Shown here: positions 42,787 to 64,000 of the stretch, piece by piece | Layout of the letters: each line of letters opens with the position of its first letter | How positions within the stretch are numbered: the stretch's first letter is position 1 | NCBI RefSeq assembly: GCF_003725735.1 | Contig: NZ_RJTM01000013.1 | Span: 1-64,000 of the forward strand | Source: Sinomicrobium pectinilyticum | GTDB lineage: Bacteria > Bacteroidota > Bacteroidia > Flavobacteriales > Flavobacteriaceae | Direction: 5' to 3' | DNA: 64,000 nucleotides | Notes under the pieces: model-generated | What the model was told of the DNA's origin: nothing | The model's database searches: none | Seen by the model: only the letters and a program-made list of their open reading frames with translations | Translations under genes and position numbers: made by a program

Positions 42787-44190
42787 TTATTTCCACCCGC
42801 CTCCCAGTGCTTTGTACAGGGAAATGATGGCATTCAGTTGTTCATACCTGGAATTAATATAGTTTAATTCCGAATTCAGCATTTGTTCTTTCGCTGTCAA
42901 TACTTCGAGGTAGTTGATCATACCATTGTTCAGTAATTCTTCGGAATATTCCGTCGCCAGGGAATAGGCATCCAGTTCTTTTTTGCGGATGTCTATCTTT
43001 TCGGTTTCGGCCTGGTATGTATACAGGGCATCGGAAACTTCTTTGCTTGCGGTTAGCAGGGTTTTCCTGAACTCCAGCAGTGATGCCTCCTGTCTTGCTT
43101 TGGAAGCTTCGTATTCGGACTTTATCTGTCTCCTGTTAAAGATAGGTTGAACTAACCCTCCTGTAATGGTTGCAAAAAGAGATCCGGAGTCCAGCCACTT
43201 GTCAAAGTCTATACTCTGAAAACCTCCCGTAGCGGTAAGCGTCAAGGAGGGATAGAAATTACTTTTGGCCACATTGGTGAGTTCAAAAGCATTGATGAGC
43301 CCGTACTCGGCGGCAACCACATCGGGACGGTTCTGCAGCAATTGTGCAGGGACACCCAGCCTGAGTTCGGTATCGATATTCTGGTTTTCCAGACTGCCTC
43401 TTTCGATAGTCCCGGGCGTTTCCCCCAGAAGAATGCTCATGGTGTTTTCGAGGATCTTTATATTGGCTTTGAGATCCACCAGCAGGGCTTCTGCGGTGTG
43501 AAGCTGTGCTTCGGTCTGTTTTACACCTACTTCGGTTACATTTCCGGCATCTTTAAGGGCCCTGGTGGTTTCGAGGCTGGACCTCCTGTTTTCTATGGTC
43601 TCTTCGGTGATCTTCAGTTGCTCGTCAAGGGCCAGTAACTGGTAATACGCAGAGGCGATGGAAGCTACGAGTTCCGTTTTCACTGCCTGATGGGCCGATA
43701 CGGTTTGCAGGTAAGAAGCCAGAAAAGCCCTGCGGTTGCTTCTTATTTTTCCCCAGATGTCGGCTTCCCAGGAGAGATTTCCGGTAAGCTGGAACTGGTC
43801 TATATGGCCGCTAAAGAAAGATCCGAATTGGCTGTTTTGAGCCAGGAACTGCCGGCTTGCATCAACTCCGATACTGAATGTAGGGAAATACCCGGCCTTC
43901 CCTTGCTTCATGTAAGCTTCTGCAGCGACGATCTGTTGAATGGCTATACGGATATCCAGGTTGTTTTCCAGTCCTTTTTTTATGTGATCCTGTAAGTAAG
44001 GGTCCGTAAAGAGTTCTTCCCAGGAAACGTCTGCCATGGAGATACTGTCTTGCGGCAGTTCGTCCGTACGGTAAAGCCCTTCGGTCTCTTCCACTTCCGG
44101 GCGCTCGTAGGTCTTGGCTACGAAGCAGGATTGCATGAGAAATGCAAACCCTGCTATCGCAGTTATTTTAAAGATTCTTTTATAATTCAT
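42787..44190 (-). CDS. Outer-membrane efflux channel, NodT/OprM family
   Basis: The 467-residue TolC-like lipoprotein forms the exit duct of the RND efflux system. The signal peptide ends AFLMQSC, with C22 as the lipidated residue. Two OEP repeats are visible; one has SIGVDASRQF and SWEADIWGKIRSNRRAF, the other TATGGFQSIDFDKWLDSG and GGLVQPIFNRRQIKSEYE. The conserved LLQNRPDVVAAEYGL motif of the NodT family is present. Its start lies 19 bp after the pump gene's stop codon. Confidence 0.94.
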   Translation of the reverse strand: MNYKRIFKITAIAGFAFLMQSCFVAKTYERPEVEETEGLYRTDELPQDSISMADVSWEELFTDPYLQDHIKKGLENNLDIRIAIQQIVAAEAYMKQGKAGYFPTFSIGVDASRQFLAQNSQFGSFFSGHIDQFQLTGNLSWEADIWGKIRSNRRAFLASYLQTVSAHQAVKTELVASIASAYYQLLALDEQLKITEETIENRRSSLETTRALKDAGNVTEVGVKQTEAQLHTAEALLVDLKANIKILENTMSILLGETPGTIERGSLENQNIDTELRLGVPAQLLQNRPDVVAAEYGLINAFELTNVAKSNFYPSLTLTATGGFQSIDFDKWLDSGSLFATITGGLVQPIFNRRQIKSEYEASKARQEASLLEFRKTLLTASKEVSDALYTYQAETEKIDIRKKELDAYSLATEYSEELLNNGMINYLEVLTAKEQMLNSELNYINSRYEQLNAIISLYKALGGGWK

Positions 44191-44209
44191 ATCTTATCGT
44201 ATGGTGTTG

Positions 44210-47200
44210 TTAGCTTTCTTTTGATTCTTCCTGTACAGATTCAAATTCCGGGGTTCCACTTATGCGTTCCTGTAACCACTGAAACACGACGAAGAGCGTA
44301 GGGATAATGAATACTCCGACAAGCGTACCGATAAGCATACCAAAAGCAGCACCGGTACCTATGGAGTTGTTACCTTCGGCACCTACACCTTTGGCAAGGA
44401 CCAGGGGCATGAGCCCTACGATAAATGCAAAGGATGTCATAAGGATAGGTCGCAGACGTGCTTTACCTGCATCAATAGCAGCCTCTACGATAGACATGCC
44501 ATGTTTGCGCCGTTGTATGGCAAATTCCACAATAAGAATGGCATTTTTGGCAAGCAACCCGATAAGCATGATCAGCGCTATCTGGAAGTAGATGTTGTTC
44601 TGCAGTCCGTCAAGTTTGGTAGCAATGAACGCACCTGCCACTCCCACAGGAAGCGATAACAATACGGAAAGCGGTAAAATGTAACTTTCGTACTGGGCTG
44701 CCAGGAAGAAATATACGAAGAGGATACTCAGGGCAAAAATGATAATGGACTGTCCGGCCGAGTTAATCTCTTCACGGGTAAGTCCCGAATATGCCACTTC
44801 ATAGTTATTTGGCAGCGTTTCTTTTGCCAGTTTGTCGATAGCTGCAATGGCGTCTCCGGTACTGAATCCTTCGGCAGTAGCCCCGTTAACGGTTACGGCG
44901 TTGAAAAGGTTAAAGCGGTTTACCGTTTGGGGCCCGTATACCCTTTTCAGTGTTACGAATTCCGAAATAGGCGCCATTTCTCCATTACCGTTACGTACAA
45001 ACATACTGTTCAGGCTGGACTGGTCTTTACGATCATCGGGTTCGGATTGTACGAACACTTTATATTGTTTTCCGAACCGGCTGAAGTCGGTTGCATAAAA
45101 ACCACCGATATATCCCTGAAGCGTAGATAATATGTCGCTAATACCAATTCCGGCTTCTTTGGCCTTGGGAACGTTTATCTCCATTTCCAATTGGGGGTAA
45201 TTGGTGCTGAAAGAGTTGGAGGCAAATCCGATCTCCGGGCTCTGGTTCAGTGCGCCGACAAATTGTTTGGCTACATTGTCCAGGTCTTTTATGTCTCCTG
45301 CAGCGCGGTCGAGAATTTGCAGCTCGAGGTCGGAATTACCGAATCCGGGTACGCTGGGAGGGGTAAAGAAGATGATATTGGCATCGGATATTGCCGCGGT
45401 CTTCTGGAAAAGCTGGCCTACAATGGCATCGATCGAAGTTGCGTCAGTAGTACGTTTTTCCCAGTCTTCGAGGATAATGAATCCCATGGCATATGAGCTA
45501 CCCGAACCGGAGAAGAAGTTCCTGCCGTTTATCAAACCGGCTGCCCGGATACCTTCTATACTGCTGATAATGTCGTGCAGTTCCTCGGTTACACTATAGG
45601 TTCTGTCCAGAGAAGAACCGGGAGGTAATTCAACGTTGACCATGACAAAACCACGGTCTTCCGAAGGTACAAAGCCCGTAGGTGTGTTGTTGTTTGCCCA
45701 GAATATACCTAGTACCGCCGCAATAAGGATAACTGCAGTGATCCATTTGTGCTTGGTGAGAAAGCCCAACGATTTGGCATATTTCTCGGTCATCTTGTTG
45801 AAAGCGATGTTGAATGCGCTATAAAAACGTTGCAGCACATTTTTCTTGGCGTCCGGATGATCTTTATGAGGTTTGAGGAATATGGCACACAGGGCCGGGC
45901 TCAGCGTCAATGCATTGACTGCCGAGATCAGGATGGCCACAATAAGGGTTACCCCGAACTGTTCGTAAAATACTCCCGAAGGCCCCTGTATAAACGTAAT
46001 GGGCACAAAGACGGCCGCCATAACCAAGGTAATGGATATAATGGCCCCGCTGATCTCACTCATGGCCGATACGGTGGCGTTCAGCGCGTTGTCGTACCCT
46101 TCTTCGAGCTTGGAATGGACGGCCTCGACGACGACAATGGCATCATCGACCACAATACCGATAGCCAGGATCAGTGCGAACAGCGTGAGCAGGTTTATCG
46201 AATATCCGAATAACTGCAGGAAGAAGAACGTACCCACAATGGCCACAGGTACCGCAATTGCGGGTATCAGTGTGGACTTTACGTCCTGCAGGAAGATGAA
46301 TACCACGACGAAAACCAGTAAAAACGCTTCTATCAGGGTGTGTTGTACCTTTTCGATAGACGCGGAAAGGAATTTGTTGGTGTCATAGTACACGACATAA
46401 TCTATCCCTTCGGGGAAATTGGCTTTCAGGTCGTCCATTTTGGCATGGATAGCTTCTATAACTTCCTGGGCATTGGAACCGGGAGTCTGGAATATTCCGA
46501 CATTAGAGGCCGGGTAGGTCATCGTACGGCTCAATCCGGTATAAGAGAAAGCGTCGAGCTCTACCTTGGCGACGTCTTTAACCCTTAAAAACCTGCCGTT
46601 GCCCAGAGCCTTTATAACAATATCTCCGTATTCTTCGGCTGTTTTATAGCGTCCTTTATATTTGATAACATATTCGAAAGACTCTCCCGAGTTCTGGCCG
46701 AGTGATCCTGCGGCAGCCTCAAGGCTCTGCTCACCGATGGCACCTATAACATCGTTGGTCGTGAGGCCGTAAGAAGCCATTTTGGCGGGGTCTATCCAGA
46801 TACGCATGGAGTAATCCTTGGCTCCGAATACAGATACGTCACCGACCCCTTTTATCCTTTGTAATTCGGGACGGATATTTATGCTCAGGTAGTTCTGTAC
46901 AAAGGTGTCATCATAGTCAGGGTTTTCGGAATATACCCCCAGGTACATCAAGGCCGAGTTCAGCCGTTTTTGTGTAATTACCCCGGAACGGGTAACTTCG
47001 GACGGCAAAACGGAATTAGCCCTTGCTACCCTGTTCTGTACGTTTACCGCAGCAATATCGGGGTCAATACCTTGTTCAAAATACACCTGGATGGTAGCAC
47101 TACCGTCATTACTCGCGGTAGAGGTCATATAGGTCATTCCTTCCACCCCGTTCACCTGCTCTTCTATAGGGATGATTACACTTTCCAGAATGGTTTCTGC

Positions 47201-47359
47201 GTTAGCTCCCGGGTAACTGGCGGTTACCTGTACCGTGGGAGGTGCAATGTCGGGATATTCCGTGACGGGCAGCGTGTAAAGCCCCAGAACCCCGAGTATT
47301 AGGATGATGATCGATATTACTGTGGATAATACCGGTCTTTCTATAAACTTTTTAAGCAT
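44210..47359 (-). CDS. RND efflux pump permease, HAE1 family
   Basis: The 1049-residue inner-membrane proton antiporter of the AcrB/MexB type has twelve transmembrane segments in two halves with large periplasmic loops. The N-terminus is MLKKFIERPVLSTVISIIIL. The proton-relay pair is in TM4 (LAILAIGIVVDDAIVVVEAV, adjacent Asp residues). The porter motif GFVPSEDRGFVMVNVELPPG starts the second half and the C-terminus ends in TM12 at FIIPTLFVVFQWL. Length and motifs point to drug or toxic-lipid export rather than metal export. It starts 9 bp after the adaptor gene. Confidence 0.96.
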   Translation of the reverse strand: MLKKFIERPVLSTVISIIILILGVLGLYTLPVTEYPDIAPPTVQVTASYPGANAETILESVIIPIEEQVNGVEGMTYMTSTASNDGSATIQVYFEQGIDPDIAAVNVQNRVARANSVLPSEVTRSGVITQKRLNSALMYLGVYSENPDYDDTFVQNYLSINIRPELQRIKGVGDVSVFGAKDYSMRIWIDPAKMASYGLTTNDVIGAIGEQSLEAAAGSLGQNSGESFEYVIKYKGRYKTAEEYGDIVIKALGNGRFLRVKDVAKVELDAFSYTGLSRTMTYPASNVGIFQTPGSNAQEVIEAIHAKMDDLKANFPEGIDYVVYYDTNKFLSASIEKVQHTLIEAFLLVFVVVFIFLQDVKSTLIPAIAVPVAIVGTFFFLQLFGYSINLLTLFALILAIGIVVDDAIVVVEAVHSKLEEGYDNALNATVSAMSEISGAIISITLVMAAVFVPITFIQGPSGVFYEQFGVTLIVAILISAVNALTLSPALCAIFLKPHKDHPDAKKNVLQRFYSAFNIAFNKMTEKYAKSLGFLTKHKWITAVILIAAVLGIFWANNNTPTGFVPSEDRGFVMVNVELPPGSSLDRTYSVTEELHDIISSIEGIRAAGLINGRNFFSGSGSSYAMGFIILEDWEKRTTDATSIDAIVGQLFQKTAAISDANIIFFTPPSVPGFGNSDLELQILDRAAGDIKDLDNVAKQFVGALNQSPEIGFASNSFSTNYPQLEMEINVPKAKEAGIGISDILSTLQGYIGGFYATDFSRFGKQYKVFVQSEPDDRKDQSSLNSMFVRNGNGEMAPISEFVTLKRVYGPQTVNRFNLFNAVTVNGATAEGFSTGDAIAAIDKLAKETLPNNYEVAYSGLTREEINSAGQSIIIFALSILFVYFFLAAQYESYILPLSVLLSLPVGVAGAFIATKLDGLQNNIYFQIALIMLIGLLAKNAILIVEFAIQRRKHGMSIVEAAIDAGKARLRPILMTSFAFIVGLMPLVLAKGVGAEGNNSIGTGAAFGMLIGTLVGVFIIPTLFVVFQWLQERISGTPEFESVQEESKES

Positions 47360-47368
47360 GGTTTTTTC

Positions 47369-48496
47369 CTATTTGAATACGGTGTTAAATGAATTTACGA
47401 TGCTGTCTATACTGGTGGGTTGCGGAGCGATTTTCATCCCCGGTCGTGCTTTTCCGACACCTTTGCCCAGTATTTCTTCATTTTCTTTTATGCCGTCACT
47501 GATAACCAGTAAGTTGTCCACTTCTGCCACGGATTCCACCGACCTGGAGTAGATAGAATCATTATCTGCTACGATATAGACGAATTTTTTACCTTGTTGT
47601 TCAAAGGTGGACAGTGCGGGTATAACCAAAGCATCGTCGTATTGTTCCGGTACCAGGATGGTGCCGCTGCTTCCGTTTCTCAGCAAGCCGGTGGGGTTCG
47701 GGAAAGTGGCCCTGAAACTTACCGTACCGGTTTGCGGATCTATTTGCCCTGTAATGGTCTCTATGGTCCCTTCTTCTTCGTATTCGGAACCATCTGCAAG
47801 CAACAGCTTTACTTTGGGCATGTTTTTTGCCTTATCATCCAGTGTTTTGCCTTCCACACTTCTCGTAAAAGAAATAAAGTCTTTTTCATTCATGGAGAAG
47901 AACGCATACACTTGGTCTATGCTGGATACATTGGTCAATGGCGTAGCATCGGTGGCACTCACCAGTGCCCCTTTGCGGAAGGGGATGGAACCTACAACGC
48001 CATCTACCGGGCTTTTAATGGTTGCATAACCTATATTGGCGGTAATACTGTTATAATTGCTTTTGGCTTGCGCCAGACCGGCCTTCGCGGTTTGCAGTTG
48101 TATCTGGCTTATGATACCCTTCTCTACCAGGGGCACAAGCTTATCTACTTCTACCTGTGCTACATCTACCTGTGCCTTGGCAGCTTCTGCGTCCTGGCTC
48201 AGGGAGAGGGTTTCGAGACGGAAAAGTACCTGTCCTTTTCTGACGTTTTCGCCTTCGTCTACCAATACATCCTGTATATAACCGGAAACTTTGGCACGTA
48301 CGTCACTGCTTACCACACCCTCTATGCTGGCCGGGAACCGCTTATAGGCCATAACATCCTTTTTCCCGGCTTTTACTGTGGGAAACGGCATAGCCATAGC
48401 CTGTTGTCCCTGAGGTTGCCCTCCGTTACAACTTGTGAGGAACGGAACAATCCCGGCAATTGCCACCATGTATTTTAAAATAGTTTTTGTTCTCAT
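47369..48496 (-). CDS. RND efflux periplasmic adaptor (membrane fusion protein)
   Basis: The 375-residue lipoprotein joins pump and channel. The signal peptide ends in the lipobox FLTSC, with C23 lipidated. The hairpin and lipoyl half-motifs are SGYIQDVLVDEGENVRKGQV and IKSPVDGVVGSIPFRKGALV. Beta-barrel and membrane-proximal domains follow, ending near FNTVFK. It is the first structural gene of the operon, 16 bp after the regulator gene. Confidence 0.95.
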   Translation of the reverse strand: MRTKTILKYMVAIAGIVPFLTSCNGGQPQGQQAMAMPFPTVKAGKKDVMAYKRFPASIEGVVSSDVRAKVSGYIQDVLVDEGENVRKGQVLFRLETLSLSQDAEAAKAQVDVAQVEVDKLVPLVEKGIISQIQLQTAKAGLAQAKSNYNSITANIGYATIKSPVDGVVGSIPFRKGALVSATDATPLTNVSSIDQVYAFFSMNEKDFISFTRSVEGKTLDDKAKNMPKVKLLLADGSEYEEEGTIETITGQIDPQTGTVSFRATFPNPTGLLRNGSSGTILVPEQYDDALVIPALSTFEQQGKKFVYIVADNDSIYSRSVESVAEVDNLLVISDGIKENEEILGKGVGKARPGMKIAPQPTSIDSIVNSFNTVFK

Positions 48497-54457: not shown

Positions 54458-55048
54458 TTACCTGTAAAAATTCATCTCATCGATATATTTCCAGACGGCC
54501 GGGTGCAGAAGCGGGGTAACGTTTTTCCCCTCTTTTATGTCCCTGCGAATGGCCGTTGAGGATATTTCTATGACAGGGGCATCTATTTTGCGGATCCGGG
54601 GATGATCTTGAAGGGGGGGAGGCTCCGGTGCAGTGGTTATCCTGGGGTATACATATACGGAGTGGTTTTGCAGTATGATGTCGTGGTTTTTCCACTTGTG
54701 GAGGCCCTTAAGGTTGTCTTCGCCCATGATAAGACAAAATTCCCGCCCGGGGTACTTTTCCTGAAGATGTACCAGTGTATTTACGGTATAATTGGGTTGA
54801 GGTAATTTGAACTCTATATCCGAAGGTTTCAGCTTTTCCAGTTCATTCGTCGCCCGGTATACCATTTCCAGGCGGTGGTGGTCCGGGAGGAGGGAATTTT
54901 TTTTCTTGAACGGGTTGTGCGGGGTAACAACCAGCCATATTTCGTCCAGATCACTGTGTTCGGCAAAATGATTGGCTATGATAACATGCCCGATATGAAT
55001 GGGATTGAATGTCCCGAAATAAAGTCCGGTTTTTTTGTGTATTTCCAA
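54458..55048 (-). CDS. nadD: Nicotinate-nucleotide adenylyltransferase
   Basis: NadD joins ATP and nicotinate mononucleotide to give deamido-NAD. The 196 residues contain the nucleotidyltransferase motif GLYFGTFNPIHIGHVIIA (8-25; GxFxPxHxGH) and the second signature ISSTAIRRDIKEG near 165. The substrate loop VVTPHNPFKKKNSLL is present. It is the last gene of the yicC-gmk-nadD unit, 14 bp after gmk. Confidence 0.95.
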   Translation of the reverse strand: MEIHKKTGLYFGTFNPIHIGHVIIANHFAEHSDLDEIWLVVTPHNPFKKKNSLLPDHHRLEMVYRATNELEKLKPSDIEFKLPQPNYTVNTLVHLQEKYPGREFCLIMGEDNLKGLHKWKNHDIILQNHSVYVYPRITTAPEPPPLQDHPRIRKIDAPVIEISSTAIRRDIKEGKNVTPLLHPAVWKYIDEMNFYR

Positions 55049-55062
55049 AGCAATGACTTGTA

Positions 55063-55659
55063 TTACTTGTTCTCCCGGTTTACAAATTGATCTACCAGTT
55101 GTTCTGCTTCCTTCAGGGCAGTTTCCAGGTCGTAATTTTGGATGATCTTGTCGAACTGGGGAGCAGTGGCCAGCTCTACCGATGCTTTTGCGATCCGCAT
55201 GTTGATCTTGTCTTCGGGCTCGGTTTTGCGTTTCTTCAACCGTATTTTCAGTTCGTCCACACTCGGGGGTTTAACAAAAACTGCCAGGGTCTGTTCCGGG
55301 AATTTCTTTTTTATGCGGAGCCCGCCCGCTACATCTATATCGAAAATAACATGTTTGCCTGTGGTCCATATGCGTTCTACTTCACTTTTCAGGGTGCCGT
55401 AAAAATTATCCCGGTAAACTTCTTCCCATTCCAGGAAGTCGCCTTGTTTTATATGGTTTTTAAACTCCTGGAGGCTGAGAAAGTAATAATCTTTCCCGTC
55501 TACCTCGTTCCCCCTGGGAGCGCGGGAGGTAGCCGATATGGAAAAATCGAGGTTCAGTTTTTCAATGCCGAGCAGGTGGCGTACGATAGTGGTTTTTCCG
55601 CTGCCGGAAGGAGCGGAAAACACGATGAGTTTGCCTTGTTGGGAATCGTTGTTTACCAT
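55063..55659 (-). CDS. gmk: Guanylate kinase
   Basis: Gmk phosphorylates GMP to GDP. The 198 residues have the P-loop SAPSGSGKTTIVRHLL (15-30) and the GMP-binding segment SATSRAPRGNEVDGKDYYFL. The ATP-lid arginines are in KIRLKKRKTEPEDKINMRI. It follows yicC by 39 bp and precedes nadD by 14 bp, a conserved order in Bacteroidota. Confidence 0.96.
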   Translation of the reverse strand: MVNNDSQQGKLIVFSAPSGSGKTTIVRHLLGIEKLNLDFSISATSRAPRGNEVDGKDYYFLSLQEFKNHIKQGDFLEWEEVYRDNFYGTLKSEVERIWTTGKHVIFDIDVAGGLRIKKKFPEQTLAVFVKPPSVDELKIRLKKRKTEPEDKINMRIAKASVELATAPQFDKIIQNYDLETALKEAEQLVDQFVNRENK

Positions 55660-55698
55660 GTTGTATAATCTAGTTTTGAGAGTACTTCCTGAAAGATC

Positions 55699-56556
55699 CT
55701 ATAATACGTTAAGTACCTGTTCTTTGATTTTTTCCAGTTCGTCTTTCATCTGCACGACCAGTTTCTGCATGGGCGCATAATTGGCTTTAGAGCCGATAGT
55801 ATTGATTTCCCTTCCGATCTCCTGGGATATGAACCCGAGCTTTCTACCGTTGGAATCGTCAGATTTCAGGGTGCTGAGAAAGTAATCGAGGTGATTGGAC
55901 AGGCGTACCTTTTCTTCCGTGATATCGAATTTCTCCAGGTAGTATATAAGTTCCTGTTCAAAACGGTTCTGATCTACATTTTCGCGGATATCCGCTACGG
56001 CTTTTTCAAGGCGTTCCCGAACCTGGACCATCCGCTCCGGGTCTAGCTGTTTTACCTGGTCCAGCAGGGAAGAAATATTGTTTATCCGCAACAGGAAATC
56101 CTTTTCCAGGGCTTTTCCCTCTTCGCTGCGGAAGGTGCTGATCTCTACCAGTGCTTCCTTAAGGGCCTGATTAATGGCTTGATATTCTTCTTCATCGATA
56201 TCGCTGCGCTCTGTTTTGAGCGCATCCGGCATTCTTACCGCCATTTTCAGAAGCTCTATCTCTTCTCCGTTAACAATATTTTTCAATTGTTTTATGTACT
56301 GGTTCACCACAGCTTCGTTGACCTGCGATGAGGTTTCTTCTCCGGTGATCTCCACGTACAGGCTGAAATCCACCTTGCCCCTTACCAGGGTATTGGCAAT
56401 GGTACTCCGCATCTGTAGTTCTTTTTCCCGGTACTGGGAAGGTATCCTGGCATTAACATCCAGGCTTTTGCTGTTGAGCGATTTCAGCTCTACGGTTATT
56501 TTTTTGGTGGAAAGTTGTATTACAGACTTCCCGAAACCTGTCATAGATTTTATCAT
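55699..56556 (-). CDS. YicC family endoribonuclease
   Basis: The 285-residue cytoplasmic protein begins MIKSMTGFGKSVIQ, the hallmark YicC N-terminus, and ends with the DUF1732 domain (SDDSNGRKLGFISQEIGREI and NTIGSKANYAPMQKLVVQMK). E. coli YicC has been linked to RNA decay as an endoribonuclease. Here it heads the operon with gmk and nadD. Function in this organism is inferred from the family. Confidence 0.93.
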   Translation of the reverse strand: MIKSMTGFGKSVIQLSTKKITVELKSLNSKSLDVNARIPSQYREKELQMRSTIANTLVRGKVDFSLYVEITGEETSSQVNEAVVNQYIKQLKNIVNGEEIELLKMAVRMPDALKTERSDIDEEEYQAINQALKEALVEISTFRSEEGKALEKDFLLRINNISSLLDQVKQLDPERMVQVRERLEKAVADIRENVDQNRFEQELIYYLEKFDITEEKVRLSNHLDYFLSTLKSDDSNGRKLGFISQEIGREINTIGSKANYAPMQKLVVQMKDELEKIKEQVLNVL

Positions 56557-56777: not shown

Positions 56778-57896
56778 ATGAATACTTTTTACCGCAAATT
56801 ATGTAAGGGCCTTCTTTTGGGGCTTGGAGTGCTGATTTCCTCGTGTGAGGATGAAGAGATCATATCGGGCTATCTTGCGCCGCTGGATATGGAACAACAA
56901 GTAAATCTGGTCTATGGGACACAGGCAGAGTTGGACCTGGCGGGAGAGCTTACGAAAGATCAGCATGTAAGTTTTGAAATTACTTTTGAAGAAACGGAAG
57001 ACCTGAAAATTACGGATGATGTAACGCTCCGGGATGTTTTGGAGCGGTCCGTGACTTTTAATTCCGGATCAGGCAAAATCGAGATAGACACGAAAAATCT
57101 ATATCCCAACGCCATGCAGTCGGAAATATCAGGGGCCATACTTCCCGGGACGTATCAGGTTACGGTAAGTGCTCATTCTTCCGAAGGTTTTAAACCGGTA
57201 CAACAAACATTTTCCCTGAAGGTCCTTCCGGCCAAACTTGAAATTGAAGAAGTGGATAATACCGAAGCCATTCCTTATGCGTATGCTTTATATGACCAGG
57301 GAGAACTGAACTATTCCCTGAAAGTCCCTGATTTTTTTACTTCCGATATGTCCTGGGAACTTCACATGAACGGATGGCCCGATCCGAATATAACGGTCCG
57401 GGACCATCGGATCATCGTAAGGGAAGGGGCAGGAGATGAAGAAAAAAAGACTGAATGGACCTATGACCTGATCCCTTCACTGAAAAAAGATGGCTTTACA
57501 GTGGCATCCAGGCAGTTCCGGGTAGTGCTTTTACCGGAAATGAAATTTTTTTACGGGGCCTATTATTCGGAGTACGACCTGTCTGTGACGTTAAACCAGC
57601 TCTATATAGGGCTTTACGATGCCTTTGAAAGTAACCCTCCGGTGTTTTACCCGGAAAAATACAAGCAGAGTTTTGAGATCCTGGCGATAGAAAAGGACGG
57701 GGCAGCTTTTGGGAATGAAGACAATATTATCGGTATAAATGAGGAAACCGGATTGGTTACGGTAGCACATAACCATGTTTTGGAACAGGGACGATACAAG
57801 ATTCGTGTGCAGGCCAATTCGGTCACCGGCCTTGTTTTTGAGACGGAATTAACCCTGATTATGGAGTCCGTATCGGAAGACGATCACCATCATTAA
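56778..57896 (+). CDS. Surface lipoprotein of unknown function
   Basis: The 372-residue lipoprotein has a signal ending LGVLISSC, with C23 lipidated, followed by EDEEIISGYLAPLD; an acidic stretch after the cysteine often directs Bacteroidota lipoproteins to the cell surface. The body looks like three beta-sandwich modules: ~35-150 (GTYQVTVSAHSSEGF), ~155-250 (SWELHMNGWPDPNITVRDH) and ~255-365 (GRYKIRVQANSVTGLVFETE). They resemble surface glycan-binding or cadherin-like folds, but I cannot name the family. It ends naturally in HHH. It has its own promoter and converges on the keto-sugar cluster. Confidence 0.75.
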   Translation: MNTFYRKLCKGLLLGLGVLISSCEDEEIISGYLAPLDMEQQVNLVYGTQAELDLAGELTKDQHVSFEITFEETEDLKITDDVTLRDVLERSVTFNSGSGKIEIDTKNLYPNAMQSEISGAILPGTYQVTVSAHSSEGFKPVQQTFSLKVLPAKLEIEEVDNTEAIPYAYALYDQGELNYSLKVPDFFTSDMSWELHMNGWPDPNITVRDHRIIVREGAGDEEKKTEWTYDLIPSLKKDGFTVASRQFRVVLLPEMKFFYGAYYSEYDLSVTLNQLYIGLYDAFESNPPVFYPEKYKQSFEILAIEKDGAAFGNEDNIIGINEETGLVTVAHNHVLEQGRYKIRVQANSVTGLVFETELTLIMESVSEDDHHH

Positions 57897-57918: not shown

Positions 57919-57959
57919 CAACAAGAGGTTGTCAAAAAAGTGAAGACAACCTCTTGTTG
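57919..57959. terminator. Bidirectional hairpin ending the keto-sugar cluster
   Basis: CAACAAGAGGTTGTC (57919-57933) and GACAACCTCTTGTTG (57945-57959) form a perfect 15 bp stem with an 11 nt loop, between convergent genes. T-tracts are weak (ATTTTTG at ~57969 on the plus strand). Confidence 0.8.
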
Positions 57960-57977: not shown

Positions 57978-58739
57978 TTACCGGAGCTCCCGTATCCAAA
58001 TATTCCTGTAACTGACCTCACTGCCGTGATCCTGTAACCGGACAGGGCCTTCTCCGTGGGGTTCGTTCTTAGGCCACCCGATATATTCGGTTGTACCTTT
58101 TATTGCTACATGGTCCTGAACCAGAATACCGTTGTGCAGTACAGTTACGGTAGCAGGTTTGGTCTTATTGCCCGCTTCATCAAATTCCGGGCCGTGATAA
58201 ATAATATCGTAAGTATTCCATTCCCCTGTTTTAACGGAAGCTTTGGCCAGGGGCACGTGTTGTTTATAGACGGCTCCTACCTGCCCGTTCACGTAGGTAT
58301 CGTTATCATTGTTGTCCAGGACCTGTATTTCATAACGGTCCTGCAGGAACACTCCGCTGTTTCCGCGGTTTTGTCCGTCCCCTTTTATTTTCTCGGGAGA
58401 TTTCCACTCCAGGTGCAGCTGTACGTCACCAAAGCTTTTTTTGGTTTGTATGTCCCCTGCTCCGGGTTTTACAGACATACTCCCGTCCCTGTTCAATGTC
58501 CAGGAAGCTTTGGAGGAGGTTTTTGTGCTGACCCATTGATCCAGGTCCTTACCGTCGAACAATACGATAGCGTCGCTCGGAGCGCTGTTTTCGCTTGCAG
58601 GGGTTACTACGGGCGGAACGGGTTCGTAAAATTCGGTTTCCTCCGGTTTTGTGGGTTCTTTTTCACCTTGTTTTTCCTGTCCACGGGTGTACATGCTTCC
58701 GAAGAGACAGATGGTAATAAATATGTGTGTCTTTTTCAT
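57978..58739 (-). CDS. 3-keto-disaccharide hydrolase (DUF1080), periplasmic
   Basis: The ~253-residue protein has a signal peptide (MKKTHIFITICLFGSMYTRG) and no lipobox, so it should be soluble in the periplasm. An ATG seven codons upstream (58760) overlaps the previous stop but would add charged residues before the signal. The concanavalin-like domain starts at DAIVLFDGKDLDQWV (~60) and carries the family hallmarks NRGNSGVFLQDRYEIQVLD, GQVGAVYKQ and the closing LQDHGSEVSYRNIWIREL. Family members cleave glycosides already oxidised at C3. It is the last gene of the cluster. The exact substrate cannot be read from sequence. Confidence 0.88.
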   Translation of the reverse strand: MKKTHIFITICLFGSMYTRGQEKQGEKEPTKPEETEFYEPVPPVVTPASENSAPSDAIVLFDGKDLDQWVSTKTSSKASWTLNRDGSMSVKPGAGDIQTKKSFGDVQLHLEWKSPEKIKGDGQNRGNSGVFLQDRYEIQVLDNNDNDTYVNGQVGAVYKQHVPLAKASVKTGEWNTYDIIYHGPEFDEAGNKTKPATVTVLHNGILVQDHVAIKGTTEYIGWPKNEPHGEGPVRLQDHGSEVSYRNIWIRELR

Positions 58740-58759
58740 CTTTGTTCTTTCTTCGGGCA

Positions 58760-59521
58760 TTATAGTTCCTTGATCTTTATGTTCCGGAAAGAAACGCCGT
58801 CGCCATGATGCTGTAGCCCGATTTTTCCGGTTTGATAGGCACCGAAACCTTCCCAGCCGTTAAACTTGGACTTTTTAATCATATTCTGCCATGCTTCACC
58901 GTGTACCGGGAATTTAACAATTTCCACACCGTTCAGCCATATTTTCCCCTCATTGGCATTGTGATCTATTTTCAGGACCATGGTATTCCATTTTCCTGCG
59001 ACCTTGGCTACATCTTCGGAGGGGGCAACCATATCATACAGGGCACCTGCCTGATGTGTTTTTCCGGCTTTGGCATCGGGATGCCTTTCATTGTCCAATA
59101 CCTGTACCTCCGGGCCGGTCTGGTAAGGTTCATGTAATTCCGGGATTTCCTTTACACCCCAGAAGACACCGCTGTTCCCCCCTTCGGAAATTTTCCATTC
59201 GAGGGAGAGTTTAAAGTTGGTATAATCTTTATCGGTAACCAGGTTTTTTCCACCGGTTTTACTGTTGTTATCCGGGGTGAGCACCATTGCACCGTCCCGG
59301 ATACTCCATTCGGGGGAGATCTCATCGGCATTATAACCGTGCCATCCGTTAAAGGTCTTGCCGTCAAAAAGGACTTCCCAGTCCCCTTCTTCTTTTTTCT
59401 CCTGTTTTTCCACACCGGCCGTTTCTTTTTTTGAAGCGGATTCCTGTGTATCTTTTTTGTTTGCCTCTTTGCAACCTGCCAGGAAAACCAGTGCAAGGGC
59501 GAAATAACTTATCTTCTTCAT
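58760..59521 (-). CDS. 3-keto-disaccharide hydrolase (DUF1080), lipoprotein
   Basis: The 253-residue paralogue of the next gene is membrane anchored: the signal ends in LVFLAGC, with C17 lipidated, followed by a ~30-residue linker rich in Lys and Glu. The DUF1080 domain shows WEVLFDGKTFNGWHGYN, EGGNSGVFWGVKE, PEVQVLDNERHPD, AGALYDMVAP and LQHHGDGVSFRNIKIKEL. The pair offers one tethered and one soluble form of the same enzyme class, possibly with different specificities. It starts 41 bp after the TIM-barrel gene's stop codon. Confidence 0.9.
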   Translation of the reverse strand: MKKISYFALALVFLAGCKEANKKDTQESASKKETAGVEKQEKKEEGDWEVLFDGKTFNGWHGYNADEISPEWSIRDGAMVLTPDNNSKTGGKNLVTDKDYTNFKLSLEWKISEGGNSGVFWGVKEIPELHEPYQTGPEVQVLDNERHPDAKAGKTHQAGALYDMVAPSEDVAKVAGKWNTMVLKIDHNANEGKIWLNGVEIVKFPVHGEAWQNMIKKSKFNGWEGFGAYQTGKIGLQHHGDGVSFRNIKIKEL

Positions 59522-59562
59522 GTTAATATATTTTTTAGCTAATTAACGGGGCGGGGTATTAC

Positions 59563-60633
59563 CTAAGACAACCCCAGGATTTTTTTTAATTTTTCATCAT
59601 CCGTGTCGGCACCTGCGAAATCGTCAAATGCCTTTTCCGTGGCTTCTATGATATGGCTCTGAATGAACGGGGCGCCTTCCCGGGCTCCCTGTTCCGGTGA
59701 TTTTATACAGCATTCCCATTCCATAACGGCCCATACGTCACATCCGTACTGGGTGAGTTTGGAGAAAATGGTCTTGAAATCCACCTGCCCGTCTCCGAGG
59801 GAACGGTATCTTCCCGCCCGATCTCTCCAGTCATTGAACCCTCCGAAAGCTCCCTTTTTTCCGGTAGGGTTGAACTCGGAATCCTTAACATGGAAGGCTT
59901 TTATAAATTCGTGATAATGGTCTATGTAAGCGATATAATCCAGTTGTTGTAATACGAAGTGGCTGGGGTCATATAATATGTTTACTCTTTTGTGGTTGTC
60001 GGTAGCTTTCAGGAACCTTTCAAAAGTATCGCCATCGTGCAGGTCTTCGCCGGGGTGGATTTCATAACATACGTCCACATCGTTTTCATCGAAAGTATCC
60101 AGAATGGGTTTCCAGCGTTTTGCCAGTTCTTCAAAACCCATTTCCACAAGTCCGGGCGGACGCTGTGGCCAGGGGTGTGCGGTGTGCCACAGGAGGGAAC
60201 CGGAAAAGGTAGCATGTGCCTTAAGCCCTAACCGGCGACTGGCAACTGCGGCCTTTTTTACCTGGTCTACAGCCCATGCTGTCCGGGCTTTCGGGTTGTT
60301 TTTATATTTGTCCGGGGCAAAATTGTCGAACATAACATCGTAAGCAGGGTGTACCGCTACAAGCTGTCCCTGAAGGTGGGTAGAAAGTTCGGTTATTTCC
60401 AGTCCGTAGGAACCCACTTTTTCTTTGAGTTCATCACAGTAATCCTGTCCTTCCGATTCGTCTACGCTTCCCGCTTTATCCAGGTCTATCAGGAAAGTTT
60501 CGGGAGTGGGTATCTGAATACCTTTATAGCCCAGTCCGGCGGCCCAGTTACACAGACCGTCCAGCGAATTGAAAGGCGCTTTGTTGTCTACAAACTGTGC
60601 CAGAAATACGGCAGGGCCTTTAATTGTTTTCAT
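59563..60633 (-). CDS. Sugar phosphate isomerase/epimerase-like TIM-barrel protein
   Basis: The 356-residue cytoplasmic protein belongs to the xylose-isomerase-like TIM-barrel superfamily. Likely metal ligands are the Glu in VDVCYEIHPGEDLHDGD, Asp/His in ILYDPSHFVLQQLD, His in IKAFHVKDSEFN and Glu in WAVMEWECC. Such proteins isomerise or epimerise sugars or keto-sugars. Together with Gfo/Idh enzymes and DUF1080 hydrolases this suggests processing of the 3-keto sugar released by cleavage. It lies 58 bp after the Gfo/Idh gene and 41 bp before the DUF1080 gene. Confidence 0.85.
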   Translation of the reverse strand: MKTIKGPAVFLAQFVDNKAPFNSLDGLCNWAAGLGYKGIQIPTPETFLIDLDKAGSVDESEGQDYCDELKEKVGSYGLEITELSTHLQGQLVAVHPAYDVMFDNFAPDKYKNNPKARTAWAVDQVKKAAVASRRLGLKAHATFSGSLLWHTAHPWPQRPPGLVEMGFEELAKRWKPILDTFDENDVDVCYEIHPGEDLHDGDTFERFLKATDNHKRVNILYDPSHFVLQQLDYIAYIDHYHEFIKAFHVKDSEFNPTGKKGAFGGFNDWRDRAGRYRSLGDGQVDFKTIFSKLTQYGCDVWAVMEWECCIKSPEQGAREGAPFIQSHIIEATEKAFDDFAGADTDDEKLKKILGLS

Positions 60634-60691
60634 TATGATTATTTTAATTTAACTTTTAATAGAGTTTGTTTGTGTCTCCGGGAACCTTCGG

Positions 60692-61831
60692 TTAAATGCT
60701 CACCCAGGCAGCGTTGTTCTCATCGCTCTTTACTGCGGCATGTATGAACTGTACTCCTCTGACACCGTCACTTACCGTGGGGTAATCCGGGTTCTCAAAG
60801 GGTTTGTTTTCCAGTACGTTCATAAGATGCCTTCCGAAATTCCTGTAAATGGTGGCAAAAGCTTCCAGGTATCCTTCGGGATGCCCTTTAGGTATCCGGG
60901 AAACGGCTCTTACTTCATCGTAAATGGAATTCCCGTCCGGTGTAAATGTCTGCTCCGGCTTGTCCACCCATTTGGCGTACAGGCGGGTAGAATCTTCCTG
61001 GTTCCACTGAATGCTCCCTTTGCTGCCGTATACACGTATAGCAAGGTCGTTTTCTTCGCCCACCGCGATCTGCGAGATGGACATGGTACCTTTTGCACCG
61101 TTTTTCATACGGAACAGGATGTTGCCGTCGTTATCCAGGACCCTGCCCTCACCGATTCTTCCGAGATCGGCTGCAAGTTCGGTAATGTCTGTTCCCGTGA
61201 TGTAAGAAACCAGGTTTTCGGCATGGGTGCCTATATCTGCCAGCGAACCTCCGACACCCGATTTGGCGGGGTCGGCCCTCCAGGGTTTTATGGCGGCCTG
61301 TTCGTCGAGTTCGGCAGCCATCCAGCCCTGTAAATACTGAACATGGATTTTGCGAATGCTCCCAAGATCACCGCTTTCCACCATTTTCCTGGCCTGTTTT
61401 ACCATGGCATTGCCTGTGTAATTATGGGTCAGGGCAAATAAAAGTCCCGTTTCCTTTACGAGTTTTTCCAGGGTTTTTGCTTCTTCTACGGTAAGTGTCA
61501 TGGGTTTGTCACATACCACATGAAACCCGTTCTCCAGGGCCATTTTTGCAGGCTCAAAATGAAGGTGGTTGGGGGTGACAATAGCTACGAAGTCCATTCG
61601 TTCTCCTTCGGGCAGTTCTTTCTCCTTTGAGATCATTTCCTCAAAATTGCCATAACACCTTTCTTCAGGAAGGTAAAGCGACCTTCCGGTTTCTCTGGAT
61701 TTTTCCGCAGTGCTGCTGAAGGCGCCACATACGAGTTCTATCATACCATCCATGGCAGATGCTTTTCTATGGACACCGCCCATAAAAGAACCGATTCCGC
61801 CACCGATCATACCCATTCTTAGTCTTCTCAT
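60692..61831 (-). CDS. Gfo/Idh/MocA-family NAD(P)-dependent oxidoreductase
   Basis: The 379-residue enzyme has a dinucleotide-binding fold, GMIGGGIGSFMGGVHRKA (7-24), and the family lysine in CDKPMTLTVEEA (~108-119). The catalytic region PAKSGVGGSLADIGTHAENL has Asp and His where family enzymes keep the proton-relay pair. Such enzymes oxidise or reduce sugar hydroxyls, often at C3. No signal peptide is seen, so it acts in the cytoplasm. It is a distant paralogue of the next gene. Confidence 0.9.
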   Translation of the reverse strand: MRRLRMGMIGGGIGSFMGGVHRKASAMDGMIELVCGAFSSTAEKSRETGRSLYLPEERCYGNFEEMISKEKELPEGERMDFVAIVTPNHLHFEPAKMALENGFHVVCDKPMTLTVEEAKTLEKLVKETGLLFALTHNYTGNAMVKQARKMVESGDLGSIRKIHVQYLQGWMAAELDEQAAIKPWRADPAKSGVGGSLADIGTHAENLVSYITGTDITELAADLGRIGEGRVLDNDGNILFRMKNGAKGTMSISQIAVGEENDLAIRVYGSKGSIQWNQEDSTRLYAKWVDKPEQTFTPDGNSIYDEVRAVSRIPKGHPEGYLEAFATIYRNFGRHLMNVLENKPFENPDYPTVSDGVRGVQFIHAAVKSDENNAAWVSI

Positions 61832-61876
61832 TTTGCTTTGTTTATTTTTTAGCTGCTTAATTCACCGGTTATTTTT

Positions 61877-61901
61877 GGCTTTTGATGATCCCTCAAAAGC
61901 C
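61877..61901. repeat. Inverted repeat between the two Gfo/Idh genes
   Basis: GGCTTTTGA (61877-61885) and TCAAAAGCC (61893-61901) form a perfect 9 bp inverted repeat with a 7 bp loop, in the 234 bp gap between the oxidoreductase genes. It lacks a T-tract on the minus strand, so an operator or RNA processing site is more likely than a terminator. Confidence 0.5.
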
Positions 61902-62065
61902 TTTGTTGAGAGCGTGCCTAAAAAGTACAAAATATATGTCGAAAATTAAATATGTTTAGCTGCCTTTAACCTTAGAAGCACCTAAAAAACGTTTTTTATA
62001 CACTTTCTCTTCGGTGAAAGAACTTTTTATGAAAAATTATTCGGAAAGCTTCCGTAATGCCGGGC

Positions 62066-63199
62066 TTATACTTCTACCCAGACATTCCCTTTTTTATGGG
62101 ACTCAACTACTTTTTCAATAAAATTCATACCGCGAACGCCATCGTTTATAGTAGGAAACTCACCGGGATGGTATTTTTCGTTCCGGATAGCTCTGGCAAC
62201 TCCCTTGTAGATATTGCCCATGGAATCGAAAATACCTTCGGGATGCCCGGGAGGCAATTTACTGCCGTCCAAAGACAATTGACTGTTATACGCGTGTCCG
62301 GGCTTTAATACTTTTAACGGGCCGTCTTCGGTGAGGTGATAGAGGTAATTGGGGTTTTCCTGTTCCCATTTCAGGCCTCCTTTATTGCCGTAAATACTCA
62401 CGGTAAAGTTGTTTTCTTCGCCGGTAGCGATCTGGCTGGTGCGGATAAGCCCTTTTACAAATTCGGAGAAACGCAGAAGTACAGTACCGTCAACATCCAT
62501 TTTATTATCACTGTACACGTAATTGAGGTCCGCAAGTATTTCTTTTACTTCCATTCCGGTCACGTATTCTATCATGTCAAAAGCATGCGTACCGATATCG
62601 CCTATACAACAACTGATCCCGGATTTTTCGGGGTCGAGTCGCCATGTGACAGCACGTTTTTCCGCATCGTGGATGATAGGGTTGATCCATCCCTGGTAAT
62701 ACTGTACATCTATCTTTTGTATGGTGCCGATCATCCCGGACGCGATCATCTCTTTCATTTGGCGCACCATAGGATACCCGGTATAGGTGTAGGTTACTGC
62801 AAATATGGTTTTGGATTTACCGAGGATCTCTTTCAGTATTTTTGCTTCCTCATAGGTGGTGGTCATCGGTTTTTCGCAAATGACATTGAACCCGTTTTCC
62901 AGCAGCTTTTTTGCCATGGGAAAATGAAGGAAGTTGGGTGTCAGGATTGAAATCACCTCCATCCTTTCGGTTTCGGGGAGTTTAAGTTCTTCTTCGATCA
63001 ATGTGTCGAAGTCTCTATACACCCGGTTGGTAGGAATACCGATTTTTTCGGCAAAGCCGATATTCTGTTCAAAATCAGGGTTAAATACGCCGCCTACTAA
63101 TTGGTAACTATCATACATGGAGGAAGCAACCCGGTGCAATACCCCTATTAACGAATCGCCACCCCCTCCGAGAATTCCTAATCTGATTTTAGTGCTCAT
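62066..63199 (-). CDS. Gfo/Idh/MocA-family NAD(P)-dependent oxidoreductase
   Basis: The 377-residue paralogue of the previous gene has the nucleotide-binding motif GILGGGGDSLIGVLHRVASS (~8-27), lysine motif CEKPMTTTYEEA, and catalytic region DPEKSGISCCIGDIGTHAFD. The shared VLHRVASS/VHRKASA and GDIGTHA features show common descent within a subgroup in which Gly, Asp and His follow the sugar-binding loop. One enzyme may make and the other reduce the 3-keto sugar. It is cytoplasmic, with no signal peptide. Confidence 0.9.
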   Translation of the reverse strand: MSTKIRLGILGGGGDSLIGVLHRVASSMYDSYQLVGGVFNPDFEQNIGFAEKIGIPTNRVYRDFDTLIEEELKLPETERMEVISILTPNFLHFPMAKKLLENGFNVICEKPMTTTYEEAKILKEILGKSKTIFAVTYTYTGYPMVRQMKEMIASGMIGTIQKIDVQYYQGWINPIIHDAEKRAVTWRLDPEKSGISCCIGDIGTHAFDMIEYVTGMEVKEILADLNYVYSDNKMDVDGTVLLRFSEFVKGLIRTSQIATGEENNFTVSIYGNKGGLKWEQENPNYLYHLTEDGPLKVLKPGHAYNSQLSLDGSKLPPGHPEGIFDSMGNIYKGVARAIRNEKYHPGEFPTINDGVRGMNFIEKVVESHKKGNVWVEV

Positions 63200-63386
63200 T
63201 TTTTAGTTAGTATGTTATTGTTGTGTTTAAAATTAAAATAAAAAGGATTACTGGAAAAAATGGAATGAAAATCCGGATGATCCCGGATTTTCGTTCTTTA
63301 ATATATTATCCGTAAATGAAGTGTCCTTCATTGTTGGTTTTTCTTAAATCATAAATACTGCGGTCCCGTATACGGTCCGGAAAAGT

Positions 63387-64000
63387 TTACGAATTTTTGT
63401 ATTCCACTTTTTCGTTCCGGAATAACAGGACAAAAAGCACGGATACGGCAAAGGCAAAAATAGCAGGAAAGATCCATATGTTCTCCCAGTTGTGAGAACC
63501 ATCTGCTGCGAGGTACGTATCGGTAATCTTACCGGCTACCCAGAATCCGATAAGCATACCCACACCATAGGTAGCCAGGGTAATGAGTCCCTGTGCCGCA
63601 CTTTTGTATTTTTCTCCTGCCTTGGTATCTGTATATATCTGACCGGAAACAAAGAAGAAATCATAACAGAGGCCATGTAACGCAATACCCGTAAGGAGCA
63701 TAAACGCAAGTTCTCCGGCATTGCCGTAAGCAAATAACAGGTAACGTAGTGTCCATGCCAGCATTCCGGCAAGGATGGTCTTTTTGAAACCAAACTTTTT
63801 AAAGAAAAATGGCAGGAGCAGCATAAACAAGACTTCGGATGCCTGGCCCAAAGCCATTTTCTCCGTAGGACTTTCCAAACCTGCTTCCGTAAGGAACGGG
63901 TGAGTGTTCTGATAGTAGAAAGCCAGGGGAATACAAATCAATACGGAAGAGATAAAGAACATGAGGAAGTTCTTATCTTTTAACAGTTTCAGGGCTTCCA
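63387..64000 (-). CDS. MFS nucleoside/sugar permease, partial
   Basis: The frame stays open to the right edge of the window (reading ...EALKLLKDKNFLMFFISS), so only the C-terminal ~204 residues are present. They include about six transmembrane segments of the NupG/XapB-like MFS group (AFYYQNTHPFLTEAGL, SEVLFMLLLPFFFKKFGFK, GIALHGLCYDFFFVSGQIY). Members of this group in Bacteroidota often sit in sugar clusters, so the cargo may be a sugar. It is the first visible gene of the cluster, 187 bp before the Gfo/Idh gene. Confidence 0.88.
   Translation of the reverse strand, partial: EALKLLKDKNFLMFFISSVLICIPLAFYYQNTHPFLTEAGLESPTEKMALGQASEVLFMLLLPFFFKKFGFKKTILAGMLAWTLRYLLFAYGNAGELAFMLLTGIALHGLCYDFFFVSGQIYTDTKAGEKYKSAAQGLITLATYGVGMLIGFWVAGKITDTYLAADGSHNWENIWIFPAIFAFAVSVLFVLLFRNEKVEYKNS

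Follow-up and report, generated by a model that had tools for sequence, protein, structure and literature searches.

How can exported enzymes be supplied with keto sugars if the oxidoreductases encoded beside them are cytoplasmic? This question is raised by a gene cluster of Sinomicrobium pectinilyticum at the right-hand edge of the stretch of DNA analysed here (the window), i.e., the first 64000 bases of the 134239-base contig NZ_RJTM01000013.1, contig and window coordinates being the same. A first-pass annotation had described a keto-sugar cluster of six same-strand genes coding for two DUF1080 proteins, two Gfo/Idh enzymes, a TIM barrel and a permease. Indeed, all six open reading frames (ORFs) were found on the minus strand (57978-63998), and each passed Pfam far over the cut-off, in agreement with the families named. 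Since the window ends within the contig, part of the cluster lies beyond the window. The gaps among the cluster genes ranged from -1 to 234 bp.

57978-58760, minus strand: DUF_B, exported DUF1080 protein (3keto-disac_hyd) with a signal-like N-terminus and no lipobox
58760-59521, minus strand: DUF_A, lipoprotein DUF1080 with an LAGC lipobox
59563-60633, minus strand: TIM1, AP_endonuc_2 TIM barrel, cytoplasmic 2-hydroxy-3-keto-glucal hydratase homologue
60692-61831, minus strand: GFO2, leaderless Gfo/Idh/MocA oxidoreductase, predicted 3-keto-sugar reductase
62066-63199, minus strand: GFO1, leaderless Gfo/Idh/MocA oxidoreductase
63387-64619, minus strand: MFS permease (Nuc_H_symport), of which the window holds the C-terminal part only (63387-63998)

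The first-pass annotation had considered the topology an open puzzle, as either another enzyme would have to make the keto group outside or keto sugars would have to cross the membrane, and had suggested looking to the right of the window for an exported GMC or gluconate-2-dehydrogenase-type enzyme. We found both types there, together with a cytochrome c gene.

64704-65714, minus strand: TIM2, TIM barrel with a leader resembling those of twin-arginine translocation (Tat) substrates and a lipobox; seventh gene of the operon
65858-67570, plus strand: GMC oxidoreductase, flavoenzyme by Pfam, divergent from the operon
67581-68219, plus strand: G2DH3 (Gluconate_2-dh3 subunit) with a twin-arginine motif
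68280-69212, plus strand: TIM3, third TIM barrel, with a twin-arginine motif
70684-71193, minus strand: cytochrome c lipoprotein, about 1.5 kb past TIM3

The GMC gene and its partners diverge from the operon across 143 bp, and with a GMC enzyme, a Tat-motif Gluconate_2-dh3 subunit and a cytochrome c encoded close together, a LacABC-type gene set is present. Because a predicted exported sugar dehydrogenase of the GMC type is encoded next to the operon, the topological gap is explained: this complex is the likely oxidant and would account for a keto group made outside, and the puzzle no longer stands. The six genes of the first-pass annotation were real, but their extent had to be revised, as the MFS gene is truncated by the edge and both a seventh gene (TIM2) and a divergent partner operon lie beyond it.

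The GMC protein was compared with its homologues. Residues G19, G21, G24, H502, N545, C229, C235 and C239 were invariant in 14/14 aligned sequences, the cysteines being spaced C-x5-C-x3-C in all of them. We take the glycines to form the flavin adenine dinucleotide (FAD) site, assume likewise the roles of the His/Asn pair, and presume the cysteine spacing to be that of the iron-sulphur site of bacterial FAD glucose dehydrogenase. The best solved relatives in PDB profile searches were fructose and glucose dehydrogenases. The divergent gap holds, on its plus strand, one copy of what we take to be the Bacteroidetes-type -7 promoter word, with no -33 partner, and this was not used further. The genome carries a second, distant GMC gene (C65:66842-68554; 37% identical to the cluster GMC), also found in five genus relatives at 35-37% identity.

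We propose, with a probability of roughly 75%, that the cluster encodes a non-hydrolytic glycoside pathway in which oxidation, elimination, hydration and reduction are split by the inner membrane. Judging from the protein families, a GMC dehydrogenase that reaches the periplasm together with its Tat-motif subunit would oxidise the sugar at C3 and pass electrons to cytochrome c. Next, the DUF1080 proteins outside the inner membrane, possibly assisted by TIM2, would break the glycosidic bond by beta-elimination. In the least certain step, the MFS permease would import the keto sugar, that is, 2-hydroxy-3-keto-glucal and/or a 3-keto-hexose. Cytoplasmic TIM1 would hydrate 2-hydroxy-3-keto-glucal to 3-keto-glucose, as its close homology to a solved hydratase suggests, and GFO1 and GFO2 would reduce 3-keto-hexoses to ordinary hexoses. 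There may be two Gfo/Idh copies because one acts on gluco and the other on galacto forms, or because they differ in cofactor. What was observed are the genes, how they are ordered, their leader motifs and how often they occur together; the reactions are predicted. We placed oxidation and cleavage outside and hydration and reduction inside, with import in between, because the four-step route is established elsewhere and because of the clusters of Price et al. discussed below.

The hydration step is indicated by TIM1, which the first-pass annotation had left as an unspecified enzyme. TIM1 matched PDB 8ro4, a '2-hydroxy-3-keto-glucal hydratase', over its full length (phmmer E=1.7e-162, 544 bits; profile E=3e-182), residues 1-355 aligning to chain 1-349. 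By this end-to-end match TIM1 is a homologue of that hydratase, which we take to be an Agrobacterium enzyme. For this reason we propose elimination with subsequent hydration instead of a simple hydrolysis. A hydratase in the cytoplasm is easiest to understand if 2-hydroxy-3-keto-glucal is itself taken up. That keto sugars cross the inner membrane, one of the two options of the first-pass annotation, is the inference that we prefer.

GFO1 and GFO2 are 40% identical and both have the Pfam Gfo/Idh/MocA N- and C-domains. K110, D201 and H205 (the [E/D]KP lysine and the D-I-G-x-H residues) were invariant in 15/15 rows, and we take this lysine, aspartate and histidine to be catalytic. The closest solved relative of GFO2 (E=2.9e-109), and also of a joint GFO profile, was 3v5n, deposited merely as 'Oxidoreductase'. 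Since the route known from Agrobacterium, which resembles the LacABC and DUF1080 clusters, ends in reduction, GFO1 and GFO2 are probably the reductases of the final step.

Leader motifs in relatives were in line with the predicted compartments. Leaders were counted by crude regular-expression and hydropathy rules in homologue sets defined by >80% length and, G2DH3 excepted, 40% identity; these sets contain duplicates, L114/L048 and L062/L055 sharing DNA. L114 is a record of Wocania arenilitoris and L062 one of an uncultured Flavobacteriaceae bacterium, in agreement with Flavobacteriaceae as the family sampled. A hydrophobic N-terminus was present in 60/61 DUF_A, 45/47 DUF_B, 49/62 TIM2 and 13/13 cytochrome sequences, and in 1/96 TIM1, 0/62 GFO1, 1/28 GFO2 and 4/81 GMC sequences. 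The twin-arginine (RR) motif occurred in 65/66 G2DH3 and 22/23 TIM3 sequences; we infer export of G2DH3 and TIM3 from this motif, and that of GMC from its partner. An RR pattern was also found in 6/28 GFO2 and a loose lipobox pattern in 6/62 GFO1 sequences. TIM2 showed a lipobox-like motif in 30/62, yet the cysteine at that place was invariant in 22/22 alignment rows, so that the lipobox rule seems to undercount TIM2 lipoproteins. Together, leader motifs and Pfam support a keto-sugar cluster with exported DUF1080 proteins, leaderless Gfo/Idh enzymes and a permease; these parts of the earlier interpretation hold, and only the topological puzzle and the unspecified TIM barrel had to be given up.

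Could the keto group instead be formed by GFO1 and GFO2, the exported DUF1080 proteins then acting on exported keto sugar? Such a layout has a precedent in Bacteroides thetaiotaomicron, where excerpts of the literature describe BT2157 as a DUF1080 3-ketotrehalose hydrolase (PMC9007349) and BT2158 as a periplasmic glycoside 3-dehydrogenase of the Gfo/Idh type needed for disaccharide use (PMC11300592). The pairing of a DUF1080 protein with a Gfo/Idh-type enzyme is the same here, but in B. thetaiotaomicron the keto group is formed in the periplasm by BT2158, whereas here this is probably the job of the GMC flavoenzyme, and the Gfo/Idh enzymes are leaderless. The same genome offers a control, as it holds three further DUF1080 loci of the B. 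thetaiotaomicron build, with leader-bearing Gfo/Idh: L010 2718-5519 (C149), L011 8011-10741 (C42) and L012 287-2581 (C136). Their Gfo/Idh proteins carry Tat-like leaders (two with RR and one with KR), as expected where Gfo/Idh acts outside, and scored 123.6-295.7 bits against NCBIfam BT_2158_fam (glycoside 3-dehydrogenase), still under its 750-bit cut-off. The window pair scored lower, at 43.4 and 29.4 bits. Against NCBIfam levoglucosan dehydrogenase it reached 123.5 and 97.0 bits (E=8e-36 and 9e-28; cut-off 650 bits). With these cut-offs missed widely, we rejected a naming of the window Gfo/Idh proteins as BT2158-type glycoside 3-dehydrogenases or as levoglucosan dehydrogenases. Given also the GMC gene and its Tat-motif partner 143 bp from the operon, we consider oxidation by GFO1 and GFO2 very improbable. 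One genome seems to hold two layouts, exported Gfo/Idh with DUF1080, and exported GMC with DUF1080 and cytoplasmic Gfo/Idh. Of the three further loci, L011 also has sulfatase, SusD-type and TonB-receptor genes and L012 a TonB-receptor gene. At L013 (C132:79005-79688), which holds the lowest scorer of the eight DUF1080 domains of the genome, no cluster gene was matched; a gene whose beginning resembles that of a SusC-type receptor lies nearby.

The two DUF1080 proteins of the cluster scored 153.7 and 170.3 bits against PF06439, with a gathering cut-off of 26.8 (E=7.5e-45 for DUF_B and 5.9e-50 for DUF_A). They are 32% identical and fall into separate subfamilies. DUF_B had a sole PDB match at E<=1e-5 (4qhz, E=4.3e-78). 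DUF_A had 13 PDB relatives, with 4jqt, 3h3l and 3hbk as the best and 3osd, 8rr2 and 8tda included. A histidine was invariant in both proteins (H239 of DUF_A, in 19/19 rows). That one hydrolase is tethered and the other soluble, as described in the first-pass annotation, agrees with what is seen in this genome; this division is not conserved, since 26/47 DUF_B homologues showed a lipobox-like motif by our crude rule.

We then asked how widely the set is shared. Four of five genus relatives carry the whole TIM3-to-DUF_B set in the same order, and the fifth is without GFO1. In a set of 40 genomes that included the present one, the hydratase was found in 15 and the GMC gene in 15/15 of those and 2/25 of the others (both at E<=1e-60). 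In a wider sample of 199 family genomes from 198 genera (TIM1 at E<=1e-100, GMC at E<=1e-200), TIM1 was present in 115, GMC in 119 and both in 111 (Fisher P=3e-40, uncorrected for kinship). The route would also be retained in a small genome (G179; 1.2-Mb, 95% complete). The pathway thus looks like a family trait of Flavobacteriaceae.

For gene neighbourhoods we used 80 named TIM1 loci, which are the best 80 of at least 586 candidates, so that these counts lean towards close relatives. TIM1, GMC and Gfo/Idh occurred together in 59/80 (core loci). Among the core loci, DUF1080 was matched in 56/59, an MFS permease of either type in 51/59, G2DH3 in 51/59, TIM2 in 50/59, TIM3 in 18/59 and the cytochrome in 10/59. 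In the window, the genes flanking the cluster on the left (54458-56556) look like yicC, gmk and nadD. At least one of these was found in the fetched stretch of 42/80 named loci and all three in 40/80, and all 42 are core loci; the catabolic cluster and these housekeeping-like genes share a chromosomal neighbourhood. At the same place, a metagenome-assembled genome (L082) has a reduced set of cytochrome, G2DH3, GMC, one Gfo/Idh, TIM1 and one DUF1080. This shared position argues for long vertical inheritance.

Several loci showed variations on the set. In some relatives the permease slot is filled by a second MFS type (L048 10553-11716, L049 8142-9350 and L059 6897-8078), for which BLAST gave no significant match to the window MFS (best E 0.17); L059 carries both types. 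A GH2 beta-galactosidase-like gene (by Pfam) lies inside the cluster at L052 (3843-7055), and a gene that begins similarly is present at L060 (4206-7418), a hint that galactosides may be among the substrates. An AraC-type regulator adjoins TIM2 in one relative (L048 12833-13894), and none was found among the tested cluster ORFs of the own genome. At L121, L122, L123, L125, L127, L128, L129 and L136, in Saprospiraceae and other Bacteroidota, TIM1 homologues (67-73% identical) stood with no other query gene matched, some of these stretches being short. When one ORF was tested against Pfam at each of two cluster-free TIM1 loci, that of L129 was a further TIM barrel and that of L124 matched no family.

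Another arrangement would dispense with cleavage outside: the GMC enzyme would form the 3-keto-glycoside in the periplasm, the MFS permease would import it intact, cleavage, hydration and reduction would all be cytoplasmic, and the DUF1080 proteins would serve other substrates. The complete MFS protein is a Nuc_H_symport member (Pfam E=4e-115) that also resembles, weakly and barely past the cut-off, the LacY family of sugar symporters (PF01306, E=1.7e-5). Also in line with intact import, TIM1 and both Gfo/Idh proteins are leaderless, and the A. tumefaciens operon, in excerpts of PMC10628242, encodes an eliminase together with hydratase and reductase. However, the cluster has no second leaderless TIM barrel as an eliminase candidate, since TIM2 and TIM3 bear export motifs, and the DUF1080 proteins are exported, belong to the same operon and are present in nearly all core loci. 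We therefore regard import of the whole glycoside as unlikely.

A larger role of TIM2 and TIM3 deserves more weight. TIM2 could be the main exported beta-eliminase and TIM3 a 3-keto-sugar epimerase or isomerase that brings galacto substrates into the gluco route, the DUF1080 proteins being mainly hydratases or special lyases. The model of a TIM2 orthologue (mean predicted local distance difference test [pLDDT] score 88.8) best matched 4ovx, a planctomycete 'xylose isomerase domain protein' (Z 41.8, root-mean-square deviation [rmsd] 1.3 A, 269 residues, 54% identity), followed by a mix of epimerases, isomerases and C-glycoside deglycosidases (Z 23.8-29.0). Several C-glycoside deglycosidase structures (DgpB-C, CarB-C, CGD) were within its best 16 fold matches (Z ~25-26), consistent with an eliminase. 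AtOGE (8BVK) was not among the profile and fold matches listed for TIM2, but an AtOGE-type identity may nonetheless hold. The top NCBIfam score of TIM3 was to hydroxypyruvate isomerase, under the cut-off; the model of its orthologue (mean pLDDT 78.0) matched 1k77 and 3ngf (Z 27.2). It also matched the E. coli 3-keto-glucoside 4-epimerase 6wn6 (Z 25.3, rmsd 2.6 A, 249 residues; weak profile match), which stands amid many epimerases and xylose isomerases. Moreover, excerpts of Price et al. (PMC9007349) report that two epimerases upstream of lacB matter for lactose growth. Plain sugar epimerases nevertheless scored within 1-2 Z of these matches, so that fold does not discriminate the functions of TIM2 and TIM3, and neither seems indispensable, because TIM2 was unmatched in 9/59 and TIM3 in 41/59 core loci. 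Overall, such a division of labour is possible, though we hold it to be rather doubtful.

Several observations weigh against the compartment-split route that we favour. Neither window Gfo/Idh reaches the NCBIfam equivalog cut-offs of known glycoside 3-dehydrogenases. The hydrophobicity rule was passed by 31/66 G2DH3 and 0/23 TIM3 sequences. H239 of DUF_A may, on chain numbering alone, correspond to H275 of an enzyme described elsewhere; if that enzyme is a DUF1080 protein and H275 is the invariant DUF1080 histidine, hydration could also take place outside, which would make TIM1 partly redundant. At the thresholds used for the family sample, 4/115 TIM1 genomes were without GMC and 8/119 GMC genomes without TIM1. 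The fetched stretch lacked the GMC and Gfo/Idh pair at 21/80 TIM1 loci, eight of them showing no other query gene. Finally, 8/59 core loci matched neither MFS type (three of those loci being under 15 kb) and the cytochrome was matched in only 10/59, which leaves import by the permease and the electron acceptor as the weakest points.

Chemistry of this kind has been described in other bacteria, and the present analysis adds the completed gene set, a control of topology within one genome, a count across the family and the shared chromosomal position. Among the papers listed by full-text searches of an open-licence library, none dealt with this cluster in Flavobacteriaceae. The excerpts of Price et al. 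2022 (PMC9007349) describe LacABC near DUF1080 in Caulobacter (CCNA_01705, CCNA_01698), with a transporter, two epimerases and a reductase upstream of lacB, and similar LacABC and DUF1080 clusters in the Bacteroidetes Pedobacter, Indibacter and Algoriphagus. There, DUF1080 was proposed to be periplasmic, cluster genes were important on lactose in Caulobacter, and the fate of the 3-keto sugar after cleavage was left open. As in those clusters, a LacABC-type dehydrogenase lies here near DUF1080 with a transporter and a reductase, a likeness of gene content. In contrast to them, TIM1 is identifiable as a hydratase homologue (8ro4) and two leaderless Gfo/Idh enzymes are present.

Excerpts of PMC10628242 describe an A. 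tumefaciens operon of a GlycDH homologue, a Gfo reductase and two sugar-isomerase-type enzymes, an eliminase and a putative hydratase, for a route of oxidation, elimination, hydration and reduction whose hydratase step is termed preliminary, as well as a Rhizobium GlycDH co-expressed with a TAT-signal protein. The likeness to this GlycDH-Gfo-AtOGE-AtHYD system, so far as those excerpts go, lies in the FAD dehydrogenase, the Gfo reductase and the isomerase-type enzymes, the GMC and G2DH3 pair resembling the Rhizobium GlycDH and TAT protein. However, elimination is carried out there by the TIM barrel AtOGE and here probably by exported DUF1080 proteins, and an MFS permease and a cytochrome c gene are also present here. 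The same four-step logic is found in the levoglucosan pathway LgdA-LgdB1-LgdB2-LgdC of Bacillus smithii (PMC7676230, abstract), and both window Gfo/Idh proteins score, far under the cut-off, against levoglucosan dehydrogenase; by the NCBI criterion they are not levoglucosan dehydrogenases, and that abstract names no separate exported GMC oxidant or DUF1080 protein.

At the left end of the cluster, the perfect 15 bp hairpin noted in the first-pass annotation was found at 57919-57959.

57919-57959, no strand: inverted repeat, perfect 15+15 bp stem with an 11-nt loop, convergent genes on either side

It folds at -28.5 kcal/mol (z -7.45; 0/200 shuffles equally stable) and is a single copy in the genome. 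No T-run follows the stem on either strand, and we therefore rejected it as a proven or canonical intrinsic terminator. Convergent with the cluster lies an orphan lipoprotein gene (56778-57896) with a sub-threshold Ig-like match, which was matched in 1/19 other loci (genus relative L044) and 0/80 named TIM1 loci. Farther left, the window holds an RND efflux operon (42787-48496) of an outer-membrane efflux protein, an AcrB-type pump and a membrane-fusion protein.

What does the cluster add to the biology of the family? It supplies cytoplasmic candidates for the steps after cleavage (permease, hydratase and two reductases), set apart from the periplasmic ones. A bolder reading, which we offer tentatively and with clearly less confidence than the route itself, is that the unsaturated elimination product, 2-hydroxy-3-keto-glucal, would be the actual nutrient taken up by the permease. 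The DUF1080 lyases would stop at elimination, with hydration and reduction left to the cytoplasm, and this redox-driven, compartment-split route would be a conserved Flavobacteriaceae trait, present in more than half the genera sampled, frequently at a single chromosomal position and even where the genome is small. Among the named isolates with near-complete clusters are Maribacter caenipelagi (L072) and Cellulophaga tyrosinoxydans (L065), so that the cluster is testable in culturable relatives. If the proposal is true, an oxidative, possibly substrate-promiscuous route for glycosides would be widespread in Flavobacteriaceae, beside their known polysaccharide-utilisation loci.

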